Shown here one piece after another: positions 6,334 to 25,957 of a DNA stretch of 33,863 bases. The notes beneath the pieces are model-generated. The model saw only the letters and a program-made list of their open reading frames with translations, did no database searches and had not been told where the DNA came from. The stretch lies in assembly GCA_016183575.1 (NCBI GenBank), contig JACPEI010000066.1, positions 1-33,863 of the forward strand, in the 5' to 3' direction. This DNA comes from Nitrosomonadales bacterium (GTDB lineage Bacteria; Pseudomonadota; Gammaproteobacteria; Burkholderiales; Gallionellaceae). How positions within the stretch are numbered: position 1 is the first letter of the stretch; each line of letters opens with the position of its first letter. The position numbers and the translations under genes were made by a program.

Positions 6334-6891
6334 ATGCGCAAATTCTTCCGTCGCTTCCTGCCGCATCACGAAACGGTGAAAAACCATCGCTGGCTGAAGC
6401 CGTTCGGCGGATTGTTGCACCATCCCAACCTGTGGCATCTGCATCGCCGCTCGGTGGCGGGCGGGGTGGCGATCGGCCTGTTTTGCGGCCTGATTCCCGG
6501 GCCGCTGCAGATGATTTCTGCCGCGCTGCTGGCGGTGCTGCTGCGCGTCAATCTGCCGGTGGCGGTCTTCACGACGCTTTACACCAACCCGTTCACCATC
6601 GTGCCGCTGTATGTGCTGGCTTATGAGCTCGGTGCGTGGGTGAGCGGGGCACGCAGCGGCGCGGCGCTGGTACAGCCGTCGTTTCCGGAGCTGCATTGGC
6701 ATAGCTGGCCGGCCGAGCTGTGGGATTGGCTGATGATGCTCGGCGAACCGCTCCTGATCGGCTTGCCGCTGCTCGCCGTGAGTCTGGCAATCGCCGGGTA
6801 TTTCGCGGTGCGCGCGGCGTGGCGGGTGGCGGTGATCTGGAAATGGCGTGCCAGAAAGAAGAGGACAGAAGACAGAGGACATAACCAATGA
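6334..6891 (+). CDS. DUF2062 domain membrane protein
   Basis: The 185-aa product carries the DUF2062 signature: a basic N-terminus (MRKFFRRFLP), a conserved HRRSVAGGVAIGLFCGLIPGP segment with a membrane helix, and LYTNPFTIVPLYVLAYELG. Two or three further hydrophobic helices follow. The family is widespread in proteobacteria and its function is unknown. The gene starts about 100 bases from the divergent cation transporter. Its last codons (TEDRGHNQ) and stop lie in repeat-like AGAAGACAGAGGAC sequence and at the start of hairpin repeat copy 2, so the natural C-terminus may have been replaced. The pyruvate kinase gene begins 100 bases downstream. Confidence 0.88.
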   Translation: MRKFFRRFLPHHETVKNHRWLKPFGGLLHHPNLWHLHRRSVAGGVAIGLFCGLIPGPLQMISAALLAVLLRVNLPVAVFTTLYTNPFTIVPLYVLAYELGAWVSGARSGAALVQPSFPELHWHSWPAELWDWLMMLGEPLLIGLPLLAVSLAIAGYFAVRAAWRVAVIWKWRARKKRTEDRGHNQ

Positions 6892-6946
6892 CTTGGTTGG
6901 CGTATTTTGCCAACCTAGTCAGATGGCTAGTAGTTTCATCAGAAGA
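6881..6946. repeat. Covarying hairpin repeat, copy 2 (overlaps DUF2062 stop)
   Basis: This copy begins ATAACCAATGACTTGG and has the stem TTGGC / GCCAA around a GTATTTT-type loop. It then has TAGTCAGATGGCTA and ATCAGAAG, matching copies 1 and 3 in layout. Its first bases supply the DUF2062 stop codon; the rest forms the spacer before the pyruvate kinase gene. Confidence 0.75.
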
Positions 6947-6991
6947 CAGAGTAGCGTGCGCTGTGCGCACGACATCGCAGAAAGGATTTGT

Positions 6992-8869
6992 ATGGCTTAC
7001 ACAAGAGCGACATTCAATCTGAAGGAGCTGCTGGAAACGGTGCAGGCGCTGCGCGCCGCGGTGGAAGAGACCCGGCAGGCCCTGCTGTGCAAGTGGCGGC
7101 CGCATTTGAAAAACCGCACCTTCATTCCGAGCGCGGCCAATCTGGCCGCGTATGTCGGCCTGCGCCGCCATGACCTGCGCGCCTTGCAGCAACAGCTCGC
7201 GATGCTCGGCCTGTCATCGCTGGGGCGCTGCGAGGCGCATGTGCTGCTGACGCTGGATTCGGTGATCCATGTATTGCAGCATATGGTCGGCAAGGCGCGC
7301 CCGGCGCAGCTCATGCCGGATTCGGCGCGCGCCATCGGGCGCGATGAGGTTTTATTGAAGCAGCATACTGGCCTGTTGCTCGGCGATGCGCCGCAGAAAC
7401 GCTGGACGCGCTTCATGGTGACGCTGCCGGGCGAGGCGGCCGGGGATTACCTGTATGTGCGCGATCTGCTGGTGCGCGGCATGGATTGCGCGCGCATCAA
7501 CTGCGCCCACGACAACGAGGCGGCATGGCGCAACATGGCCGTGAATGTGCGCCGCGCGGAAAAGGAAACCGGGCGGCCGTGCAAAATCACGATGGACCTG
7601 GCCGGGCCGAAATTGCGCACCGCATTCATGGCGGCCGGCCCGGCCGTGCTGCATCTCGGCGTCAAACGCGACGAGCGCGGCCGGGTGGTTCAACCCGGCC
7701 GGGTGATCCTCGATGCGTCCGGCGCGCCCGGCTGCGGCGCATCGGTCAACAAGATCGGCCAGCGCGTCCCGGCGCGCCTCAGCGTTCCCGCCGCATGGCT
7801 GGACAAAATCATGCCGGGCGACAGCATCCTGTTCGAGGACTTGCGCGGGCGCGAGCGCCGCCTGAAGGTTGTGCAGCGGCTGTCGCCGATCGAAGTGCTG
7901 GCGAGCTGCGAGGCGGGTGCGTATATCGGCATCGGCACGGCCTTGCGGCATCAATCCGAACGCGACAAGGGTACCGCCGCCACGGCGCAAAGCGGCGATT
8001 TCATCCCGCCGCCGGCGAAGATCCGCGTGTTCCAGGACGACCTGCTGCTGCTGACGCGCGAGGATACCGCCGGCAAGCCGGAAAAGCGCAATGCCGCCGG
8101 CAAGGTGACCAAACCCGCGCATATCGCGTGCAGTGAGGCCGGGGTGTTCGATTTTCTCGAGGCCGGGCACAAGGTGTGGATCGACGACGGGCGCATCGGT
8201 GCGGTCATCGAAAAGCTCGACAAGAAGGGCGCATGGCTGCGCATCACGCGCGCGCGCCAGCAGGGCGAGATCATCGGCGCGGAGAAAGGACTCAACTTTC
8301 CCGACAGCAGAATCACGCTGCCGATCCTGAATGACGACGACCTGGCCGCGCTGGATTGCGTCGTGGAGATCGCCGACATCGTCGGGCTTTCCTTCGTGCA
8401 AAGCGCGGCGGACATCGACAGGCTGAGCGCCGAACTGCGGGCGCGCGGCAAGCCGGACATGGGCATCGTTGCCAAGATCGAAACGCCCGCCGGGGTTAGG
8501 AACCTGCCGGAGATCATCGTTCACGGCGCCGGGCGGCATCCGTTCGGCGTGATGATCGCGCGCGGCGACCTGGCGGTGGAAATCGGCTACGACCGGCTCG
8601 CGGAAATCCAGGAGGAAATCCTGTGGCTGTGCGAAGCGGCGCATGTGCCGGTGATCTGGGCGACGCAGGTGCTGGAGAGCATGGTCAAGCAGGACATCCC
8701 GTCGCGCGCCGAGATCACCGACGCGGCGATGGCGGAGCGCGCCGAATGCGTGATGCTCAACAAGGGACCGTATCTATTCAACGCGCTGGACATACTGGAC
8801 AGCGTGGTGAGCCGCATGCAGCAGCATCAACTGAAAAAGACCGCGCAATTCCGCGCATTGCATTGGTGA
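6992..8869 (+). CDS. Atypical pyruvate kinase-family protein
   Basis: Pyruvate kinase converts phosphoenolpyruvate and ADP to pyruvate and ATP. The 625-aa product keeps core (beta/alpha)8-barrel motifs: KITMDLAGPKLRT, MGIVAKIETPAGVRNLPEII with the catalytic lysine, MIARGDLAVEIG, and ATQVLESMVKQDIPSRAEITDAA in two blocks. It differs from classic enzymes (about 470-480 aa) in three ways. It has an N-terminal extension of about 120 residues, an enlarged B-domain region (about residues 300-430), and an end at ECVMLNKGPYLFNALDILDSV with no C-terminal allosteric domain. MLNKG replaces the usual MLSGETA, a variant I recall from divergent plant and bacterial relatives. The ATG at 6992 is preferred because AGAAAGGATTT precedes it; an upstream start at 6848 would overlap DUF2062. 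Whether it makes pyruvate in vivo is uncertain. Confidence 0.85.
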   Translation: MAYTRATFNLKELLETVQALRAAVEETRQALLCKWRPHLKNRTFIPSAANLAAYVGLRRHDLRALQQQLAMLGLSSLGRCEAHVLLTLDSVIHVLQHMVGKARPAQLMPDSARAIGRDEVLLKQHTGLLLGDAPQKRWTRFMVTLPGEAAGDYLYVRDLLVRGMDCARINCAHDNEAAWRNMAVNVRRAEKETGRPCKITMDLAGPKLRTAFMAAGPAVLHLGVKRDERGRVVQPGRVILDASGAPGCGASVNKIGQRVPARLSVPAAWLDKIMPGDSILFEDLRGRERRLKVVQRLSPIEVLASCEAGAYIGIGTALRHQSERDKGTAATAQSGDFIPPPAKIRVFQDDLLLLTREDTAGKPEKRNAAGKVTKPAHIACSEAGVFDFLEAGHKVWIDDGRIGAVIEKLDKKGAWLRITRARQQGEIIGAEKGLNFPDSRITLPILNDDDLAALDCVVEIADIVGLSFVQSAADIDRLSAELRARGKPDMGIVAKIETPAGVRNLPEIIVHGAGRHPFGVMIARGDLAVEIGYDRLAEIQEEILWLCEAAHVPVIWATQVLESMVKQDIPSRAEITDAAMAERAECVMLNKGPYLFNALDILDSVVSRMQQHQLKKTAQFRALHW

Positions 8870-10925: not shown

Positions 10926-12284
10926 ATGCGTGTCGCAATCATCGGTTCCGGGCCTGCCGGTTTCTACGCTGCGGAGGCGCTGCTCAGGCGCACCGACACC
11001 GTGGTTCATGTCGACATGTTCGACCGCCTCCCCACCCCGTACGGGCTGGTGCGGGGAGGCGTCGCGCCCGACCATCAGAATATTAAAGCCGTCACCCGCG
11101 TTTTCGAAAAGACTGCCGCGCGGCCCACCTTCAGGTTTTTGGGCAATGTGTGCCTCGGGCGCGACTTGACGGTGGCGGACTTGCGCCAGCACTACCATCA
11201 GATCGTCTACGCAGTGGGCAACGAGGCCGACCGCCGCCTCGGCATTCCGTGTGAAGGCATAGCGCGCTGCACGCCGGTGGCGGTGTTTATCGGCTGGTAC
11301 AACGGGCATCCCGATTACCGTCACGCGAAGATCGACTTGTCGGTGTCCCGCGTCGCGGTGGTGGGCAACGGTAACGTCGCCATCGATGCCGCCCGGATAC
11401 TGCTGTGCACGCCTGCCGAACTCGAAAAGACCGACATTGCCGCACATGCGCTGGAGGCTCTGCGCAACAGCCGGGTGCGCGAGGTTTATATACTCGGGCG
11501 GCGCGGTCCGGAGCAAGCCTCGTTCACGCCGCCCGAACTCAAGGAATTCGGCGAGATGGAAAATGTCGACCCGGTCGTTGACCCGGAAGAACTGGCGGGC
11601 TGCGTCATTCCGCAAACTGCGGGCAATACGCAGCAGGAAAAGAACCTGAAGATACTCCAGTCCTACGCCGCGCGGCAGCCTGATGCAAAGGCGAAAAAAC
11701 TCCACTTCCGCTTCCGCGTCTCGCCGACCGAGGTGATCGCCGGCGCGGACGGCAAAGTGGCCGGCCTCGCTCTCGAGAAAAACCGCCTCGAGGTTCAGCC
11801 GGACGGCACGGTCCGCGCGCGCGGCACTGGCGAGATTGAAGTTCTCGATGTCGGCATGGTGTTGCCTGCGATCGGTTTTGCCGCCGAGCGGATTGCCGGT
11901 ATCCCCTACGACGAAAAAGCGCGGGTCATCGCCAACGAAGACGGGCGCGTCGTCGATCCCGTCAGCCGCACCGCGATTGCCAACGAATATGTCGTCGGCT
12001 GGGCGCGCACCGGGCCGCAGGGGCTCATCGGCTCGCACAAGGGCGCGTCTGCCCATGTTGTCGAGTATATGATCGCCGATGGCGCCGGACTCGAGGCGCG
12101 TGAGCTTCCGGAGCGCGAGGCGATCGATTCCCTGTTGCGCGCGCGCGGTATACAGGTCGTCTCATTCGACGACTGGAAGCAACTCGATGACGTGGAGGTG
12201 GCGCGCGGGGCGCGGCGCGGTGCTCCCCGCGACAAGATAGTCGATGTCGAGGCGATGCTCGGCACCCTTCGACAAGGCCTTTAG
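10926..12284 (+). CDS. fprA: FAD-dependent ferredoxin-NADP reductase (FprA / adrenodoxin reductase type)
   Basis: This flavoenzyme moves electrons between NADPH and ferredoxin. The 452-aa product has the FAD-binding VAIIGSGPAGFYAAEALL at the N-terminus, then PTPYGLVRGGVAPDH and the NADP-binding VVGNGNVAIDAARILL (about residues 145-165). RRGPEQASFTPPELKE and the C-terminal GWARTGPQGLIGSHKGA, both diagnostic of the family, follow. GGGGAGGT lies just upstream of the ATG. The last residues (TLRQGL) and the stop come from a CCCTTCGACAAGG-type interspersed repeat, so the native C-terminal end seems to have been replaced. No ferredoxin gene is adjacent. It is divergent from the PAS-EAL gene and 124 bases before the diguanylate cyclase. 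Confidence 0.92.
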   Translation: MRVAIIGSGPAGFYAAEALLRRTDTVVHVDMFDRLPTPYGLVRGGVAPDHQNIKAVTRVFEKTAARPTFRFLGNVCLGRDLTVADLRQHYHQIVYAVGNEADRRLGIPCEGIARCTPVAVFIGWYNGHPDYRHAKIDLSVSRVAVVGNGNVAIDAARILLCTPAELEKTDIAAHALEALRNSRVREVYILGRRGPEQASFTPPELKEFGEMENVDPVVDPEELAGCVIPQTAGNTQQEKNLKILQSYAARQPDAKAKKLHFRFRVSPTEVIAGADGKVAGLALEKNRLEVQPDGTVRARGTGEIEVLDVGMVLPAIGFAAERIAGIPYDEKARVIANEDGRVVDPVSRTAIANEYVVGWARTGPQGLIGSHKGASAHVVEYMIADGAGLEARELPEREAIDSLLRARGIQVVSFDDWKQLDDVEVARGARRGAPRDKIVDVEAMLGTLRQGL

Positions 12285-18682: not shown

Positions 18683-18889
18683 ATGAAAATGGAAGAGGTG
18701 CGCGGCATCGCCAAGTCACAAGGTATCAATCCCGGCAAGCTTTCAAAAACCGAGCTGATCAGATCAATTCAGGCGGAGGAGGGTAATTTCGACTGTTTTG
18801 CCAGCGCTTATGCCAGAGAATGCGACCAGGTTGACTGTAGTTGGCGCGAGGATTGTTTTGAAGCCGCTCAAAGAGGAGAACTGTCATGA
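18683..18889 (+). CDS. SAP-like four-cysteine microprotein, 68 aa
   Basis: The product has two parts. Residues 3-31 (MEEVRGIAKSQGINPGKLSK then TELIRSIQ) match the SAP/Rho-N-like helix-extended-helix that often contacts nucleic acid. Residues 35-60 carry four cysteines (C38, C47, C52, C58) in GNFDCFASAYARECDQVDC and WREDCF, suggesting a small metal site. I recall similar unnamed small proteins in environmental betaproteobacteria; the function is unknown. AAGGAGAA precedes the ATG. Its stop overlaps the Hsp20 start by four bases (ATGA), so the two are translated together, which suggests a role in the same stress response, possibly RNA binding (inference). Confidence 0.8.
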   Translation: MKMEEVRGIAKSQGINPGKLSKTELIRSIQAEEGNFDCFASAYARECDQVDCSWREDCFEAAQRGELS

Positions 18890-19335
18890 ACCTGGTTAAA
18901 TGGGATCCCTTCAGGGAACTGGAAGATGTTACCAACCGCTTGAATCGTATCTTCGGCCAATCACTGGCGCGCAGCGAATCGGGCCAAAACATGCTGGCAG
19001 TGGCGGACTGGGCGCCTTCCGTCGACATCAGCGAGACGGACAGCGAATATCTGATCAAGGGCGAAATTCCCGGCGTGAAGAAAGAGGATGTCAAGGTCAC
19101 CATTCAGGACGGCATGCTCACCATTCAGGGTGAACGCAAGCAGGAGAAGGAAGAAAAGGGCAAGAAGTTCCACCGTATCGAGCGTTCCTACGGCAGCTTT
19201 GTGCGCAGCTTCAGGGTGCCGGACGATGCCGATGAAAACTCCGTGAAAGCCGAATTCAAGGACGGCATGCTCAACGTCACGCTGGCCAAGTCCGCGAAGG
19301 CCAAGCCCAAGGCAATTGAAGTTTCGGTGTCGTAA
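18886..19335 (+). CDS. Hsp20 / alpha-crystallin small heat-shock protein
   Basis: Small heat-shock proteins hold unfolding proteins in a refoldable state without ATP. The 149-aa product has a short N-terminal arm ([20 protein letters not shown]) and an alpha-crystallin domain (about 43-135) with [20 protein letters not shown], the GERK strand and the conserved [10 protein letters not shown] near the end. A C-terminal IEV motif (IxI/V type) may dock into neighbouring subunits. It overlaps the upstream microprotein gene by ATGA and has GAGGAGAA before its start. The cold-shock gene follows 47 bases later. I see no clear sigma-32 promoter directly upstream. Confidence 0.95.
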
Positions 19336-19382
19336 AGAACCCGCAGGGGGTTTCCCTGTTTTTCAAGCAAGGAGTTGGTCAC

Positions 19383-19586
19383 ATGGCAACTGGTACAGTT
19401 AAATGGTTTAACGACGCAAAGGGTTTCGGTTTTGTCACTCCCGATGATGGCAGCGATGATTTGTTCGCACACTTTTCCGCGATCAACATGGGCGGCTTCA
19501 AGTCGCTCAAGGAAGGCCAAAAGGTTAGCTTTGACGTGACACAAGGCCCCAAGGGCAAGCAAGCCTCCAACATTCAGGCCGTTTAG
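19383..19586 (+). CDS. Cold-shock protein (CspA family)
   Basis: A 67-aa OB-fold RNA chaperone that keeps mRNA single-stranded. Both RNA-binding motifs are intact: RNP1 as KGFGFVTP (about residues 15-22) and RNP2 as DLFAHFS (about 27-33), and the protein starts with the usual [23 protein letters not shown] lies nine bases before the ATG. It sits between hsp20 and groEL on the same strand. An imperfect hairpin (GAAACGCAG at 19618-19626 with CTGCGTTTC at 19662-19670) follows the gene and may end the transcript. Confidence 0.96.
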
Positions 19587-19617
19587 CCGAAACGTTGGTT
19601 TTTCATTTTTCACCGAG

Positions 19618-19670
19618 GAAACGCAGATTAAATCATCAGGTTCACTACGAACGGATTAAACCTGCGTTTC
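19618..19670 (+). terminator. Possible hairpin after the cold-shock gene
   Basis: GAAACGCAG (19618-19626) pairs with CTGCGTTTC (19662-19670), and the inner ATTAA-type bases could extend the stem. A long loop and the lack of a downstream T-tract make it a weak terminator candidate. It abuts composite repeat copy 3. Confidence 0.3.
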
Positions 19671-19752
19671 CCTAAGCCGGACAAGGCGGAACCAAAAATG
19701 GGAAGATGTCTTCCCGTAGGTTGGGCAAAGCGCAGCGTGCCCAACGAATGAA
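19669..19752. repeat. Composite repeat R1, copy 3 (inverted, partial, with half palindrome)
   Basis: Read on the minus strand this matches the right-hand part of copy 2: one arm of the GTAG/CTAC palindrome (here GTAGGTTGGGC... at 19716-19745) joined to GGGAAGA-TG-TCTTCCC and the CCATTTTTGGTTCCG-CTTGTCCGG end. The rest of the repeat and the second arm are missing. GGGAAGATGTCTTCCC is here a perfect hairpin. It lies between the cold-shock and groEL genes. Confidence 0.88.
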
Positions 19753-19791
19753 TTGAGAAACTACTCGTTATGCGGGAAGCAGGCATCATAG

Positions 19792-21462
<1,671 letters not shown>

Positions 21463-21523
21463 CGAACGCGCCTGTGAAACAAAAAATTCAGCCAACCATG
21501 CGATCAATCAAAGGAAAATTATC

Positions 21524-22027
21524 ATGAGCCACACAACTATTCCCGGCGGCTTCCGCCAAATCCAGCGCCACGACGGCATCTTCCAGGAGCAAGTGCACGA
21601 TGCCTACAAAGCAAAGGTCAAGCTGCCGGAGCCGACCGTCTGCCCGCAATGCGGCGCAGTCTTTCATGAAGGCCGCTGGCAGTGGCTTCAGGCCCCGGCA
21701 AACGCGCATCGGGAAACCTGCCCTGCCTGCCATCGCATCCACGACCAATATCCCGCCGGTTTCCTTACCATGAAGGGAGAGTTTTTCCAATCCCATCGCG
21801 ACGAAATCATGCATCTCGTGCATAACCATGAAAAACACGAACGGGCGGAACACCCGCTCAAACGCATCATGGCGGTGGAAGAAAAAGATGGCGCGACGCT
21901 GGTGACCACGACCGACATTCATCTGGCCCGCGGCATCGGCGAAGCGTTGCATCATGCCTATCAGGGCGAATTGCAATATCACTACAACCCGGAACAAAAT
22001 CTGTTGCGCGTGAACTGGACGCACTGA
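21524..22027 (+). CDS. BCAM0308-like zinc-ribbon protein
   Basis: The 167-aa product has two CxxC pairs (C40/C43 in CPQCGAVFHEGRW and C66/C69 in CPACHRI) that should bind one zinc. PAGFLTMKGEF, a His/Glu-rich segment (HNHEKHERAEHPLKRI) and a C-terminal alpha/beta part (VTTTDIHLARGIGEALHHAY) follow. I recognise it as the family named after Burkholderia cenocepacia BCAM0308, a gene I recall from the low-oxygen-activated locus; the biochemical function is unknown. It recalls archaeal NMD3-type zinc ribbons, so an RNA or ribosome role is possible (inference). AAAGGAAA precedes the ATG. It lies between groEL and the lipid-modification operon. Confidence 0.82.
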   Translation: MSHTTIPGGFRQIQRHDGIFQEQVHDAYKAKVKLPEPTVCPQCGAVFHEGRWQWLQAPANAHRETCPACHRIHDQYPAGFLTMKGEFFQSHRDEIMHLVHNHEKHERAEHPLKRIMAVEEKDGATLVTTTDIHLARGIGEALHHAYQGELQYHYNPEQNLLRVNWTH

Positions 22028-22113
22028 AGGAGTAAACGGATAGGCACAGCGTTTAAGCGGGTCATGGCAGACGGATTTGATGGCAGCACGACATGATTGC
22101 GAGGAGCCAAAGC

Positions 22114-23424
22114 ATGAGACAGGAACAGGCGGAGTCTTCAAGCAAACCGATAAGCGGCGGATTCTCCTGTCCGGCGCCGGCGGCAGAACAGCGGCAAACT
22201 TTCGGCAATATGGTCTTTGCGACGGAAAAGCTGCTGTTGGAGAGAATGATGCGCGCCATAGGCAATCCGCCCGTGCAAATTGTGCTGTGGAATGGGCAGG
22301 AAATTTCGAATCATGATGAGAACACGGTAGCGCAGGTGCTCATTCGCGACCGTGGTGCATTATTGAAACTGGTCACCGACCCCGAGCTCTACTTCGGCGA
22401 GTTGTACTCGGCCCAGCGCATAGAGGTGCAGGGGAATCTGCTGGATTTTCTCGATGCGGTCTATCGGGTCTGGCCGTTGGCCAGCCATGGCAAGATCGGG
22501 AAAAAACTGTTGGCTCCGTTCTACGACGCACGGTGCAATACCCTCTCCGGAGCGCGCTGCAACATCCACCACCACTACGATATCGGCAACGACTTTTACA
22601 AACTCTGGCTCGATGAACGGATGGTGTACACCTGCGCGTATTTCCCCAGCCCGGACACCAATCTTGAAGATGCCCAGATTGCAAAGCTGGATCATATATG
22701 CCGCAAACTGCGTTTGCAGCCGGGCGAAAAAGTGGTGGAAGCGGGCTGCGGCTGGGGGGCATTGGCGTTGCATATGGCCAAACACTACGGTGTGACGGTG
22801 ACAGCCTACAACATCTCCACAGAGCAGATTGCCTTCGCCCGGCAACGCGCTCGCGCCGAAGGGCTGGACGGGCAGGTCGAGTTCATCGAGGACGACTACC
22901 GCAACCTGCGCGGCGAGTTCGATGCGTTTGCCTCCGTCGGTATGCTCGAACATGTGGGGATGAACCATTATCAGGAGTTGGGGGCGGTCATCGACCGCAG
23001 CCTCAAGGAGAGCGGGCGCGGACTGATCCATAGCATAGGCCTGAATTACCCCCGCCCGATGGACGCATGGACCGAGCGCCACATTTTTCCCGGCGCCTGC
23101 CCGCCGAGCCTGGCGCAAATGATGCAGATCTTCGAGCCTTTCGATTTTTCGGTTCTGGATGTGGAGAATTTGCGGCTGCACTATGCCAAGACCCTGGAGC
23201 ACTGGCTGCGGCGGTATGAGAATAATATCGACCGCGTGGCAGAAATGTTCGATCCGGCATTTGTGCGGGCATGGCGCTTATATCTCGCCGGATCGCTCAC
23301 GGCCTTCAAGGCCGGAGGCATGCAACTGTTCCAGGTGTCCTTCGCCCGCGCAGGTCATAACCAGATTCCATGGACCCGGCAACACCTCTATCTCCCCCAG
23401 GGAGCGCACGATGGAAACCTGTGA
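22114..23424 (+). CDS. cfa: Cyclopropane-fatty-acyl-phospholipid synthase family methyltransferase
   Basis: Cfa transfers a methylene group from S-adenosylmethionine to the double bond of membrane-lipid acyl chains. The 436-aa product has a variable N-terminal domain (about 1-140) and a SAM-methyltransferase domain with YDIGNDFYKLWLDERMVYTC, the SAM-binding VVEAGCGWGALALHMAKHYG, and the catalytic-region motifs SVGMLEHVG and HIFPGACPPSL. The ATG at 22114 is chosen because GAGGAG lies eight bases upstream; an ATG at 22093 has no such site. Its last 14 bases overlap the flavoprotein gene, and a cytochrome c gene follows, so the three form one operon. Relatives of Cfa also make methyl-branched or furan fatty acids, so the exact product is open. 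Confidence 0.93.
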   Translation: MRQEQAESSSKPISGGFSCPAPAAEQRQTFGNMVFATEKLLLERMMRAIGNPPVQIVLWNGQEISNHDENTVAQVLIRDRGALLKLVTDPELYFGELYSAQRIEVQGNLLDFLDAVYRVWPLASHGKIGKKLLAPFYDARCNTLSGARCNIHHHYDIGNDFYKLWLDERMVYTCAYFPSPDTNLEDAQIAKLDHICRKLRLQPGEKVVEAGCGWGALALHMAKHYGVTVTAYNISTEQIAFARQRARAEGLDGQVEFIEDDYRNLRGEFDAFASVGMLEHVGMNHYQELGAVIDRSLKESGRGLIHSIGLNYPRPMDAWTERHIFPGACPPSLAQMMQIFEPFDFSVLDVENLRLHYAKTLEHWLRRYENNIDRVAEMFDPAFVRAWRLYLAGSLTAFKAGGMQLFQVSFARAGHNQIPWTRQHLYLPQGAHDGNL

Positions 23425-24532
23425 CGCACTCGTCATCGGGGGCGGCCCGGCGGGCTCGAGCTGCGCATGGCAGCTGCGCCGCCAGGGCATGGATGTGATG
23501 GTGATGGACAAGGTGCTGTTCCCGCGCGACAAGGTCTGTGCCGGCTGGATTACCCCGGCGGTGGTGGAGGCGCTGCAACTGGATACCGAAGATTATGGCC
23601 GGCAGCATGTGCTGCAGCCGATCACGGCTTTTCGCACCGGTTTGATCGATGGCAGTGATAGGGTGACCCGATATCCGGCCACGGTCAGCTATGGCATACG
23701 CCGCCGCGAGCTGGACGATTATCTGTTGCAACGCTCGGGGGCGCGCCTGCGGCTTGGGCAAGCGCTGGAATCTTTGCGGCGGGACGGCAAGCAGTGGATC
23801 GTCAACGATGCCATCTCGACTCCTCTGGTCATCGGTGCGGGAGGGCATTTCTGCCCGGTGGCGCGCTATATGGGGGCGAATCCAGGGGCGGACGAGCACG
23901 CAATTGCGGCAAAAGAAATCGAATTCGAGATGAGCCTGGCGCAACGCGATGCCTGCCAGGTGCGTGGGGACACTCCCGAGCTTTATTTTTGCCAGGATAT
24001 GAAGGGATACGGCTGGTGCTTGCGCAAAGGCAATTATCTGAATATCGGACTGGGCCGGGAGGATAACCATCGTCTTTCGGAACAGGTCAGGCATTTTTGC
24101 GACTTCCTCAAGCAGCGCGGCAGAATTCCACAGGACATCCCGGACAGCTTCCATGGGCATGCCTACCTGCTATATGGACATGCGGTGCGCAAACAGATCG
24201 GTGACGGCATGCTGCTCGTCGGCGATGCGGCCGGGCTGGCCTACCCGCAAAGCGGCGAAGGGATACGGCCTGCGGTGGAGTCGGGCATCATGGCTGCCGC
24301 CACCATCCTGGAAGCCGGGGGAGACTACGGCAGTGAGCAACTGCTGCCTTACGCCAGCCGGCTGGTTGCACGCTTTGGCGCTGCGGCGGCGCCAGACGGC
24401 GGGCCGGCATTCATGCGCAACTTTTTCGCCGGGGTATTGCTGGGCAACAAATGGTTTACCCGCCATGTAGTGCTGGATCGCTGGTTTCTGCACGCCCGCC
24501 AGGCTGCCATGCAGGCCGATCAGATGCTGTGA
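23411..24532 (+). CDS. Geranylgeranyl-reductase-family FAD oxidoreductase
   Basis: The 373-aa product is an FAD enzyme of the geranylgeranyl reductase type, whose known members reduce C=C bonds in isoprenoid chains. It has the N-terminal dinucleotide fold (ALVIGGGPAGSSCAWQLR), the family motif FPRDKVCAGWITP (about residues 38-50) and the second FAD motif LLVGDAAGLAYPQSGEGIRPA (about 270-290). No membrane helix is obvious, though hydrophobic C-terminal parts could touch the bilayer. The frame overlaps cfa by 14 bases and ends nine bases before the cytochrome c ATG. From this context I infer that it acts on the acyl chains modified by Cfa, with electrons passed to or from the cytochrome. This is a hypothesis; the flavin family is clear. 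Confidence 0.88.
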   Translation: METCDALVIGGGPAGSSCAWQLRRQGMDVMVMDKVLFPRDKVCAGWITPAVVEALQLDTEDYGRQHVLQPITAFRTGLIDGSDRVTRYPATVSYGIRRRELDDYLLQRSGARLRLGQALESLRRDGKQWIVNDAISTPLVIGAGGHFCPVARYMGANPGADEHAIAAKEIEFEMSLAQRDACQVRGDTPELYFCQDMKGYGWCLRKGNYLNIGLGREDNHRLSEQVRHFCDFLKQRGRIPQDIPDSFHGHAYLLYGHAVRKQIGDGMLLVGDAAGLAYPQSGEGIRPAVESGIMAAATILEAGGDYGSEQLLPYASRLVARFGAAAAPDGGPAFMRNFFAGVLLGNKWFTRHVVLDRWFLHARQAAMQADQML

Positions 24533-24541
24533 GGACTTTTC

Positions 24542-24895
24542 ATGACTGTGTCAAGGAAATTGGCTTTTGCACTGTGCCTTTTGTGGGGCACTCATACCCT
24601 GGCGCATGCCCAGGTAAAGCACAGCGAAGAGCGCGGCGAATTGCTTTATTCGACACATTGCAATGCATGCCACACCTCGGAAGTTCATTGGCGCAAGCAG
24701 AAGCTGGCGACCGACTGGAGCAGCCTTAAAGCCCAGGTGCGCCGCTGGCAGGCCAACATCGGCCTGGTCTGGAGCGAAGAGGAGATCACCGATGTCGCGC
24801 GCTATTTGAACGCTGCCTATTATGATTTTTCGAATAGTGGGCAGGAAGATTTTTCGCAGGGAAAAAAGCCCAAGCAGGCCTTGCGTAAATATTAA
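24542..24895 (+). CDS. Small exported monohaem cytochrome c
   Basis: A 117-aa protein with a cleavable signal peptide (about residues 1-23, ending LAHA) and one haem c site, C40-N-A-C43-H44. The mature part contains no methionine at all, so the usual Met distal ligand is absent; a histidine (H48 or H51 region, SEVHWRK) or an open site would be needed. The C-terminal half (WSEEEITDVARYLNAAYYDF) resembles the last helix of class I cytochromes. GAGGAC precedes the ATG, which lies nine bases after the flavoprotein stop, so it belongs to the cfa operon. It should sit in the periplasm and could carry electrons for the flavoprotein or for a respiratory partner elsewhere. Confidence 0.85.
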   Translation: MTVSRKLAFALCLLWGTHTLAHAQVKHSEERGELLYSTHCNACHTSEVHWRKQKLATDWSSLKAQVRRWQANIGLVWSEEEITDVARYLNAAYYDFSNSGQEDFSQGKKPKQALRKY

Positions 24896-24961
24896 TGGCT
24901 GATCCGGACGGGGGAGGCCAATTGAAATCTGCACCGGGCAATCAACAACATGGAGGCCATC

Positions 24962-25411
24962 ATGCCTATCAGTGAAATTTGTAACCGCGAAGTCGTCGTC
25001 GTGCAGCCCAATGACACCATCCTGGAAGCGGCCAAACTCATGCGCCAGCATCACGTCGGCGATGTGCTCGTCGTCGAGGATAGAGGCGGTGTGCGAGTTC
25101 CGGTCGGCATCGTCACCGACCGCGATCTCGTGGTGGAAATCATAGCGCCGGAGCTTGATCCGGCGACCATCACAGTGGGCGACATCATGGTGCCCGACCT
25201 GGTCACGGTAAAGGAAAATACCGGCATGTTCGAGGCAATCGAGTATATGCGCGCCAAGGGGGTGCGGCGCCTGCCGGTGGTGAATGACAGCGGCGGGCTG
25301 GTTGGCATTCTTACCCTGGATGACCTGCTTGAGCTTCTGGCGAAAGAATTGCTGGCACTCGCCAAGCTGGTGAAATACGAACAGAAAAAGGAAACAATAA
25401 GCCGCCGTTAA
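24962..25411 (+). CDS. CBS-domain pair protein
   Basis: A 149-aa stand-alone pair of CBS domains, which usually bind adenosine nucleotides and report energy state. Domain 1 covers about residues 1-65 (MPISEICNREVVVVQPNDTI through VPVGIVTDRDLV) and domain 2 about 72-130 (DIMVPDLVTVKENTGMFEAI through VGILTLDDLLELL). Both keep the (V/I)GI(V/L)T-x-DDL/RDL end that contacts ribose-phosphate. The ATG at 24962 is chosen since GGAGG (24952-24956) lies five bases upstream; an ATG at 24950 would include that site. CBS proteins of this type recur in bacterial low-oxygen and stress clusters, which fits its neighbours. Its output partner is unknown. Confidence 0.92.
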   Translation: MPISEICNREVVVVQPNDTILEAAKLMRQHHVGDVLVVEDRGGVRVPVGIVTDRDLVVEIIAPELDPATITVGDIMVPDLVTVKENTGMFEAIEYMRAKGVRRLPVVNDSGGLVGILTLDDLLELLAKELLALAKLVKYEQKKETISRR

Positions 25412-25458
25412 CGTTAAACTCGCGCAGCGAGACCGCTTTCCTCTCTCCCGCTTGCGGG

Positions 25459-25520
25459 ATAACCGGCGGCTTGGCTGGAGTAATTTTCCAGTCTGGTCGA
25501 ATGGCTGGCAGCTCCGGCAG
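25459..25520. repeat. Covarying hairpin repeat, copy 3 (upstream of hpf)
   Basis: Beginning ATAACCGGCGGCTTGG, this copy has the stem CTGGA / TCCAG around a GTAATTT-type loop, followed by GGTCGAATGGCT and GGCAGAGAG. It lines up with copies 1 and 2 over its whole length. It is framed by CCTCTCTCCC (about 25440) and GGGAGAGAGG (about 25528), which themselves form an outer inverted repeat, and lies in the 159-base gap before the hibernation factor gene. Confidence 0.7.
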
Positions 25521-25570
25521 AGAGTTGGGAGAGAGGAAAACGGGCCAAATTTATTAATAAGGAGAGACTC

Positions 25571-25957
25571 ATGCAGATCCCATTGCAAATTACCATCCGT
25601 GATGTTGAACATTCAGAGGCGCTGGAGGCGCATATCCGCGGCAAGGTGGAAAAACTCGAAGAGTTTTTCAAACATATCACGTCCTGCCGCGTGGTGGTCG
25701 AGGTGCCGCACAAGCACCATCATCAGGGCAAGCAGTTCAATGTGCGCATCGATATCGGCGTGCCGGGCAGCGAGATCGTGGTTAACCGCGACCATGCCGA
25801 AGACATTTATGTGGCCTTGCGCGATGCTTTCGATGCCGCCAAACGCCAGCTTGAGGACTACGCGCGCAAAATTCGCGGTGACGTCAAGACGCACGAACCA
25901 AGGCGCACAAGCGAAGGCGAGGCTGGCGTGCAGGAAGATGAGAGCGGCGTGCAATAA
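25571..25957 (+). CDS. hpf: Ribosome hibernation / HPF-RaiA family protein
   Basis: Proteins of this family block the ribosomal A and P sites and store ribosomes when growth stops. The 128-aa product has the beta-alpha-beta-beta-beta-alpha fold: MQIPLQITIRDVEHSEALEA, a helix with KVEKLEEFF, the strands CRVVVEVPH and FNVRIDIGVPGSEIVV, and a final helix DIYVALRDAFDAAKRQLEDY. A charged tail of about 30 residues follows, intermediate between E. coli HPF (95 aa) and RaiA (113 aa), with no long-HPF dimerisation domain. AAGGAGAG precedes the ATG. A covarying hairpin repeat lies just upstream. Its place between the CBS protein and repair genes supports a dormancy role. Confidence 0.93.
   Translation: MQIPLQITIRDVEHSEALEAHIRGKVEKLEEFFKHITSCRVVVEVPHKHHHQGKQFNVRIDIGVPGSEIVVNRDHAEDIYVALRDAFDAAKRQLEDYARKIRGDVKTHEPRRTSEGEAGVQEDESGVQ

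Follow-up and report, generated by a model that had tools for sequence, protein, structure and literature searches.

A putative tmpBA operon in a Gallionella relative and the apparent exchange of its flavoprotein with BfaA-like reductases

The window, that is the whole stretch of 33,863 nucleotides that was analysed (contig JACPEI010000066.1), carries two overlapping genes for a methyltransferase of the Cfa family and a flavoprotein with the fold of geranylgeranyl reductases (GGR) and FixC. As argued below, they probably form a tmpBA operon that would make mid-chain methyl-branched membrane fatty acids. The reading frames overlap by 14 bases, and a cytochrome c gene starts nine bases after the end of the flavoprotein open reading frame. 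The features of the pair are:

22114..23424, + strand: tmpB-type gene for an S-adenosylmethionine (SAM)-dependent acyl-chain methyltransferase of the Cfa/CMAS family, 436 amino acids, assigned by the CMAS match, the active-site residues and its place in the TmpB clade
23411..24532, + strand: tmpA-type gene for a flavoprotein of the GGR/FixC fold, a putative methylene reductase, 373 amino acids, assigned by TIGR02032, an AlphaFold2 model and Foldseek
23411..23424, + strand: tmpB/tmpA overlap of 14 bases, read from the window sequence
22630..22635, + strand: TmpB codons T173-C174 (S138-C139 in Escherichia coli), Thr beside the active-site Cys
22945..22950, + strand: TmpB codons L278-E279 (F238-E239 in E. 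coli), Leu for Phe beside the catalytic Glu
24008..24028, + strand: TmpA codons Y200 to K206 (YGWCLRK), GGR-like YxWxF motif with Arg for Pro

The pairing was followed in three sets: named loci from a one-genome-per-species scan with a flavoprotein profile (best 80 of 324 relatives), a class-wide sample of 370 genomes in which TmpA was called at 1e-30 or better, and 60 close relatives which, with the window's own 79% complete genome (G000), make a set of 61. The flavoprotein is present in 10 of the 60 close relatives at 61–81% identity, one being a contig-edge fragment, and in all nine untruncated cases Cfa lies directly upstream, with an overlap of 14 bases in eight and of 4 bases in L009. 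Of the 80 named loci, 79 have a Cfa gene upstream in the same orientation, with an overlap of exactly 14 bases in 32 of them; the exception, L073, is a contig end with just 168 bases upstream. In L075 a gap of 375 bases separates the two genes and the Cfa frame stops early. TmpA occurs in 45 of the 370 genomes (G000 included), with Cfa directly upstream in 41; this Cfa is not of the TmpB type in G164, G269 and G243, and no adjacent Cfa was seen in the stretches around TmpA of G196, G181, G271 and G345. The pairing of Cfa and flavoprotein is far beyond chance. The gene 3' of the flavoprotein differs between loci, and hence the conserved unit comprises two genes. Carriers include relatives of Gallionella, Sterolibacterium, Sulfuritalea, Accumulibacter, Steroidobacter and Thioalkalivibrio; no TmpA was found on plasmids at 1e-15. 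The named locus nearest to the window pair (among the best 80 of 324 relatives) belongs to a Gallionella metagenome-assembled genome (MAG), with 86% for the flavoprotein, and we infer that the host is a relative of Gallionella.

The window Cfa is a full-length CMAS-family enzyme (Pfam CMAS, 5.6e-82) that scores below the curated cyclopropane synthase equivalog cut-offs (316/600, 294.2/650 and 278.4/400 bits). Its bicarbonate site is conserved, and residues C174, E279, H306, I308 and Y357 are invariant in alignment A2. In a tree of 89 Cfa rows, which took every second tmpA-paired row, it falls inside the TmpB clade (76 rows, 99% support in the Shimodaira–Hasegawa-like approximate likelihood ratio test, SH-aLRT). 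No second full-length Cfa was found in its own genome, 79% complete as stated, which holds one further partial CMAS match above the cut-off (36.8 bits).

The top family model of the flavoprotein is TIGR02032 (GG-red-SF; 1.9e-44), at 152.5 bits just under the cut-off of 158.8. None of the geranylgeranyl reductase cut-offs is reached (BchP-ChlP 94.9/343.3, MenJ 75.2/700, DGGGPL reductase 48.5/580 bits), and the protein also matches DAO and FAD_binding_3. Its AlphaFold2 model (predicted local distance difference, pLDDT, 92.4; predicted template modelling score, pTM, 0.91) retrieved from the Protein Data Bank (PDB) with Foldseek, in this order, 3oz2 (a GGR-like protein), FixC (7koe_C) and the SaGGR entries, identity to the listed GGR/FixC chains being at most 21%. 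With the archaeal GGRs and FixC it shares the fold and the YxWxF...GxG residues; it differs from them by the Arg that replaces the motif Pro in 115 of 120 rows, and by its tight linkage to a Cfa gene. The stretch YGWCLRK, aligned to 3oz2 and SaGGR, corresponds to the YxWxF motif of GGRs. Cysteines C43 and C148 are conserved in all 120 rows, C182 in 113 and C194 in 104. An iron–sulphur site marked by these cysteines was considered and rejected, as there is no obvious cluster motif and only C43 and C148 are universal.

Operons of this kind were published in 2021 as tmpBA, for "ten methyl palmitate" (PubMed Central, PMC7791843). According to that paper, the Cfa-family gene tmpB is followed by tmpA for a flavoprotein similar to archaeal GGRs; TmpB makes 10-methylene acyl chains, TmpA is a putative reductase, and of five tmpBA operons expressed in E. 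coli, four led to 10-methylenepalmitate. The operons came from Desulfobacter, Desulfobacula, Marinobacter hydrocarbonoclasticus and Thiohalospira halophila (PMC7791843). In the window, too, a Cfa-family methyltransferase with a conserved bicarbonate site has a GGR-like flavoprotein directly downstream, in the order B then A, and we assign the pair to tmpBA, with which it agrees in layout, in protein families and in the conserved bicarbonate site. This type of operon is already published and is met here in a host group new for it, the activity of its second enzyme being putative; it differs from the published cases in its Gallionella-like host and in the cytochrome c gene downstream, within a stress island. 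By this model, TmpB would bind SAM together with a phospholipid whose chain is cis-monounsaturated (probably 16:1 delta-9) and would transfer the methyl group. The cation would then lose a proton, which would leave an exocyclic 10-methylene group without closure of a cyclopropane ring, and TmpA, with flavin adenine dinucleotide (FAD) in its GGR/FixC fold, would reduce the methylene to give a 10-methyl chain (10-methylpalmitate). The initial annotation, whose gene layout (14-base overlap, nine-base gap) is confirmed from the sequence, had proposed a new acyl modification by methylene transfer and then reduction or oxidation. Methylene transfer followed by reduction remains the best reading; the novelty is lost with the publication of tmpBA (PMC7791843), and with it the statement that known systems pair Cfa relatives with other flavin families, since tmpBA joins one to a GGR-like flavoprotein.

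Two other known systems are similar in part. The bfaAB operon of Actinobacteria likewise consists of a methyltransferase and a flavoprotein and yields 10-methyl chains via a 10-methylene intermediate (PMC5660069, PMC7791843). BfaA is reported to have no meaningful homology to TmpA (PMC7791843). The order also differs, bfaA being first in bfaAB and the methyltransferase first in the window, and the BfaB-position proteins examined lack the TmpB fingerprint described below. No FAD_binding_4 (PF01565) reductase stands beside the window methyltransferase, and no BfaA-like protein was matched at 1e-30 in the 79% complete G000. The furan pathway of Rhodobacter (ufaM/ufaD/ufaO) also acts on phospholipid acyl chains through a methylated intermediate; as described, it proceeds by desaturation and oxygen insertion rather than reduction (PMC7380195).

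Lipid reports from carriers or their genus agree with the tmpBA assignment without proving it. Summed feature 9 amounts to 7.6% in S. agaridevorans SA29-B (L089) and to at least 10% in S. agariperforans KA5-B (L108), both carriers of the pair (PMC7966939). T. versutus has 10-methylhexadecanoate and T. nitratis is described as lacking branched chains (PMC8092127); at the level of the genus, two Thioalkalivibrio MAGs (L099, L101) carry the pair.

TmpB-type Cfas, defined by at least 46% identity to the window Cfa, occur in 52 of the 370 genomes, two of them as fragments. TmpA is also present in 42 of the 52 and missing from 10; at 1e-10 its absence stands in eight of the 10, with weak partial matches in G334 and G086. 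In three of the 10 (G244, G093, G295) a FAD_binding_4 gene adjoins the Cfa. Relatives of its product, with 42–49% identity, are found in Nonomuraea, Tsukamurella, Nocardia and Prescottella, and in the three such loci examined (L213, L214, L216) a methyltransferase gene then follows, which is the bfaAB arrangement; in Variovorax the order is reversed relative to bfaAB. BfaA was taken to be a FAD_binding_4 protein because of these relatives and not from the paper. A profile built from the three proteins matched strongly (1e-100 or better) in 12 of the 370 genomes: eight of the 10 with a TmpB-type Cfa and no TmpA, none of the 42 with both, none of the 45 TmpA genomes, and four others (Fisher 6e-8 for BfaA-like against TmpA, with genomes treated as independent of shared descent). 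Without the three profile-building genomes the figure is five of seven (Fisher 1.1e-5, shared descent again ignored). The BfaA-like gene directly follows the TmpB-type Cfa in two of the eight genomes, lies convergently beside it in one, where its frame looks interrupted, and in four is elsewhere with no Cfa in the surrounding stretch, that of G157 being short. In the 89-row tree the BfaA-partnered rows fall among the TmpA-partnered ones. The simplest reading would be that TmpA and BfaA fill one role, the reduction of the methylene.

Single loci add to this picture of the pairs. In L215 (Variovorax paradoxus CP063167, 2689–5263), from a betaproteobacterium, the methyltransferase gene comes first (B then A) and shares 17 bases with the gene of the BfaA-like oxidoreductase, and a universal stress protein gene comes after the pair. 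On the plasmid of Prescottella sp. R16 (L214) a second BfaA/methyltransferase-like pair lies beside the first on the opposite strand; in the first copy the BfaA similarity is in two pieces, with no annotated gene there. Genus g165 is split, G198 and G296 having the TmpB–TmpA pair; in G373 (L228) a Cfa of the E. coli type with Met-238 adjoins a BfaA-like gene.

A second pattern was first noticed in the 131 rows of the TmpB clade and concerns position 238 in E. coli numbering, beside the catalytic Glu. Cys139, Glu239 and Tyr317 are kept in all 131 rows, His266 in 129 and Ile268 in 128. Position 238, which is Phe in E. coli, is Leu in 130 rows and Ile in one. Genes in the BfaB position have Thr here in Tsukamurella, Nocardia and Prescottella, Leu in Variovorax and Met in G373. 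In 80 other Cfa loci the residue is non-Phe in six of six beside a TmpA/BfaA-type gene and Phe in 74 of 74 without (Fisher 3e-9, shared descent ignored). These loci were taken down the list from the rows that rank under the TmpB type; G376 was added out of sequence, G248 (contig edge) and G174:C253 (a TmpB fragment) were dropped, and 16 further listed rows and the unlisted rows were left out. Partners were sought with TmpA and BfaA-like queries only, at 1e-6; the six positive loci were known as paired beforehand and 66 of the 74 negatives were new. Possible further Cfa–flavoprotein pairings were seen in L296 (G067), L266 (G194) and L287 (G397), where a Rossmann-type protein with no match to TmpA or BfaA at 1e-6 comes after a Phe-238 Cfa; another Rossmann-type neighbour of a Phe-238 Cfa is in L258, and L245 has a regular-expression match.

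Across 270 columns, only 237 and 238 split 11 paired non-TmpB rows from 75 unpaired rows with no shared letter, and 238 alone also distinguishes TmpB. Position 138 is nearly as good, with Thr in 11 of 11 paired and 112 of 112 TmpB rows and Ser in 72 of 75 unpaired ones. Phe is aligned at 238 in the cyclopropane fatty acid (CFA) synthases 6bqc (E. coli), 7qos and 5z9o and in the mycolic enzymes 1l1e and 1kp9; further matches among the solved structures include MmaA1 and MmaA4. In a tree of 98 rows, which left out ten TmpB-clade rows without an adjacent partner, residue and partner agree in 98 of 98, and both traits change five times, together; this amounts to only four to five independent pairs (sign test, p 0.125). 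What the analysis adds is the exchange of TmpA with BfaA-like proteins and the correlation at residue 238; no report of a TmpA/BfaA exchange or of residue 238 was found in the open-licence PMC literature. We give roughly even chances to a model in which TmpA and BfaA are interchangeable, unrelated reductases, and in which Phe-238 (usually with Ser-138) would direct full-length Cfa enzymes to the ring and another residue at 238 with Thr-138 to a methylene chain that is passed on to a reductase.

Several points weigh against this interpretation of operon, exchange and residue. The product of the window pair, the reaction of TmpA and its electron donor are inferred, and orthology to the tested TmpB and TmpA is deduced from layout, families and bicarbonate site. 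In E. coli and yeast TmpA was inactive and no 10-methyl product was obtained, for which the authors propose oxygen sensitivity or an absent electron carrier (PMC7791843). Summed feature 9 is ambiguous, comprising 10-methyl C16:0 or iso-C17:1 (PMC7966939). As to the exchange, the name BfaA-like comes from gene arrangement and relatives and not from the published BfaA sequence. G347, the last of the eight genomes, has its BfaA-like gene beside another Cfa, and G086 and G216 lack TmpA at 1e-30 and have BfaA-like matches of just 1e-48 and 1e-44. The exchange genomes are kin by descent, with four switches as the fewest (two if only adjacent BfaA is counted), and a single clade of BfaA users is not rejected (approximately unbiased, AU, test, p 0.144). 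A strict rule for residue 238 is further contradicted by the ten TmpB-clade rows that have Leu without an adjacent TmpA/BfaA-type gene, and by UmaA, which keeps Phe and for which 10-methyl stearate is reported in vitro, and not in E. coli cells (PMC5660069).

Other explanations of the pair were weighed as well. The methyltransferase might be an ordinary cyclopropane synthase, with the flavoprotein acting elsewhere, for instance on an isoprenoid or quinone chain. In favour of this, the protein retains its active-site residues and belongs to CMAS, which is a general family, and with no other full-length Cfa in the 79% complete genome the cyclopropane role would otherwise be unfilled. The strict pairing argues against this, as do Leu-238, a state absent from all 74 partnerless Cfas outside the TmpB clade, the 10-methylene chains obtained from the published tmp operon of the same layout (PMC7791843), and scores for MenJ, ChlP and the archaeal reductase that are far below the cut-offs; we regard this explanation as unlikely. 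A flavoprotein that oxidises, by hydroxylating or desaturating the chain after its methylation as happens in furan fatty acid synthesis, seems very unlikely. Its fold is common to monooxygenases and halogenases and TmpA was inactive as a reductase in both hosts tried (PMC7791843), but the best sequence match is a GGR-like protein, which also heads the structure matches together with FixC and SaGGR; the flavoprotein retains the YxWxF...GxG residues and is swapped for BfaA-like reductases.

A functional role for the cytochrome as a third partner, which would exchange electrons with the flavoprotein in either direction or link its reaction to the periplasm, appears least credible of all. The two flanking genes concerned are:

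24542..24895, + strand: small monohaem cytochrome c, 117 amino acids, a stress-island neighbour probably outside tmpBA
21524..22027, + strand: BCAM0308-family gene, the upstream neighbour (NF040826, lxa_BCAM0308, 237.4 bits against a cut-off of 100)

The cytochrome has a single CXXCH, the CNACH that begins at residue 40, and contains no Met beyond its first residue, so that a methionine haem ligand is absent, as the initial annotation had noted; its Pfam match to Cytochrome_CBB3 reaches 23.2 bits, short of the cut-off of 27. In favour of a joint function are its position nine bases downstream, its presence close by in six Gallionella-group loci and the need of TmpA for an electron donor. On the other side, it was found near the pair (tblastn, 1e-4) in only those six of the 80 named loci, and of the 21 genomes among the 61 with a match it adjoins tmpA in three (G000, G007, G017). 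By eye it also looks exported, whereas the flavoprotein shows no export signal. Furthermore, the surroundings of the pair, which comprise Hsp20, GroEL (named from the listed translation), the BCAM0308-family protein, a CBS-domain protein and a ribosome hibernation factor (HPF), recur without it. In the relative G020 (L164) the island holds Hsp20, BCAM0308, cytochrome c, CBS and HPF and no intact pair; in the interval between BCAM0308 and cytochrome (L164, 1366–1488) a degraded stretch looks like the 3' part of tmpA (with the start-site region excluded it scores 52, and 2000 shuffles reach 37 at most), and the pair was therefore probably deleted there. In L167, L169 and L171, too, the cytochrome is close to a BCAM0308-family gene and the pair is missing, the genome of the last (G004) having tmpA on another contig. 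A three-gene system including the cytochrome was rejected on the six of 80 loci, the three of 21 genomes and the G020 island, and the cytochrome is best seen as a stress-island member and a neighbour only. Of the co-occurrence that had been proposed as a check, that of the two enzymes is thus strong (79 of 80) and that of the cytochrome fails, and the suggested periplasmic redox link is left unsupported by the islands that hold the cytochrome without an intact pair.

The family NF040826 has its name from BCAM0308 of a cenocepacia system, among whose products are likewise a heat-shock protein and a cytochrome c (PMC6127331). The resemblance is limited to the surroundings, and the word cyclopropane is absent from the main text of that paper (PMC6127331). 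As for regulation, no sigma-70-like promoter was found at 21300–25700 of the window. FNR-type boxes with at most two mismatches number 16 in the window against 10.5 expected, a count reached in six of 100 shuffles; none lies at 18872–24436, and hence none near the tmpB start. Elsewhere in the window, a Pyr_redox_2 protein (10926–12284, + strand) that by eye is like an adrenodoxin-type ferredoxin-NADP reductase is a conceivable electron source for TmpA without a link to the pair, and a protein encoded at 6848–8869 (+ strand) matches the pyruvate-kinase barrel and has a long N-terminal part beyond the match.

10-Methylpalmitate serves as a lipid marker of actinomycetes and of sulfate reducers of the Desulfobacter type. 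tmpBA in relatives of Gallionella, Sulfuritalea, Accumulibacter and others would blur this marker in environments rich in iron and sulfur. For the function of TmpA, whose activity was unproven in the 2021 paper (PMC7791843), its exchange with BfaA-like proteins offers evidence of a comparative kind. If the model of exchange and residue is true, 10-methyl producers would be readable from sequence, including the relatives of Gallionellaceae, Sulfuritalea and Accumulibacter, and the residue beside the catalytic Glu would be a one-substitution handle on two kinds of product from one family.

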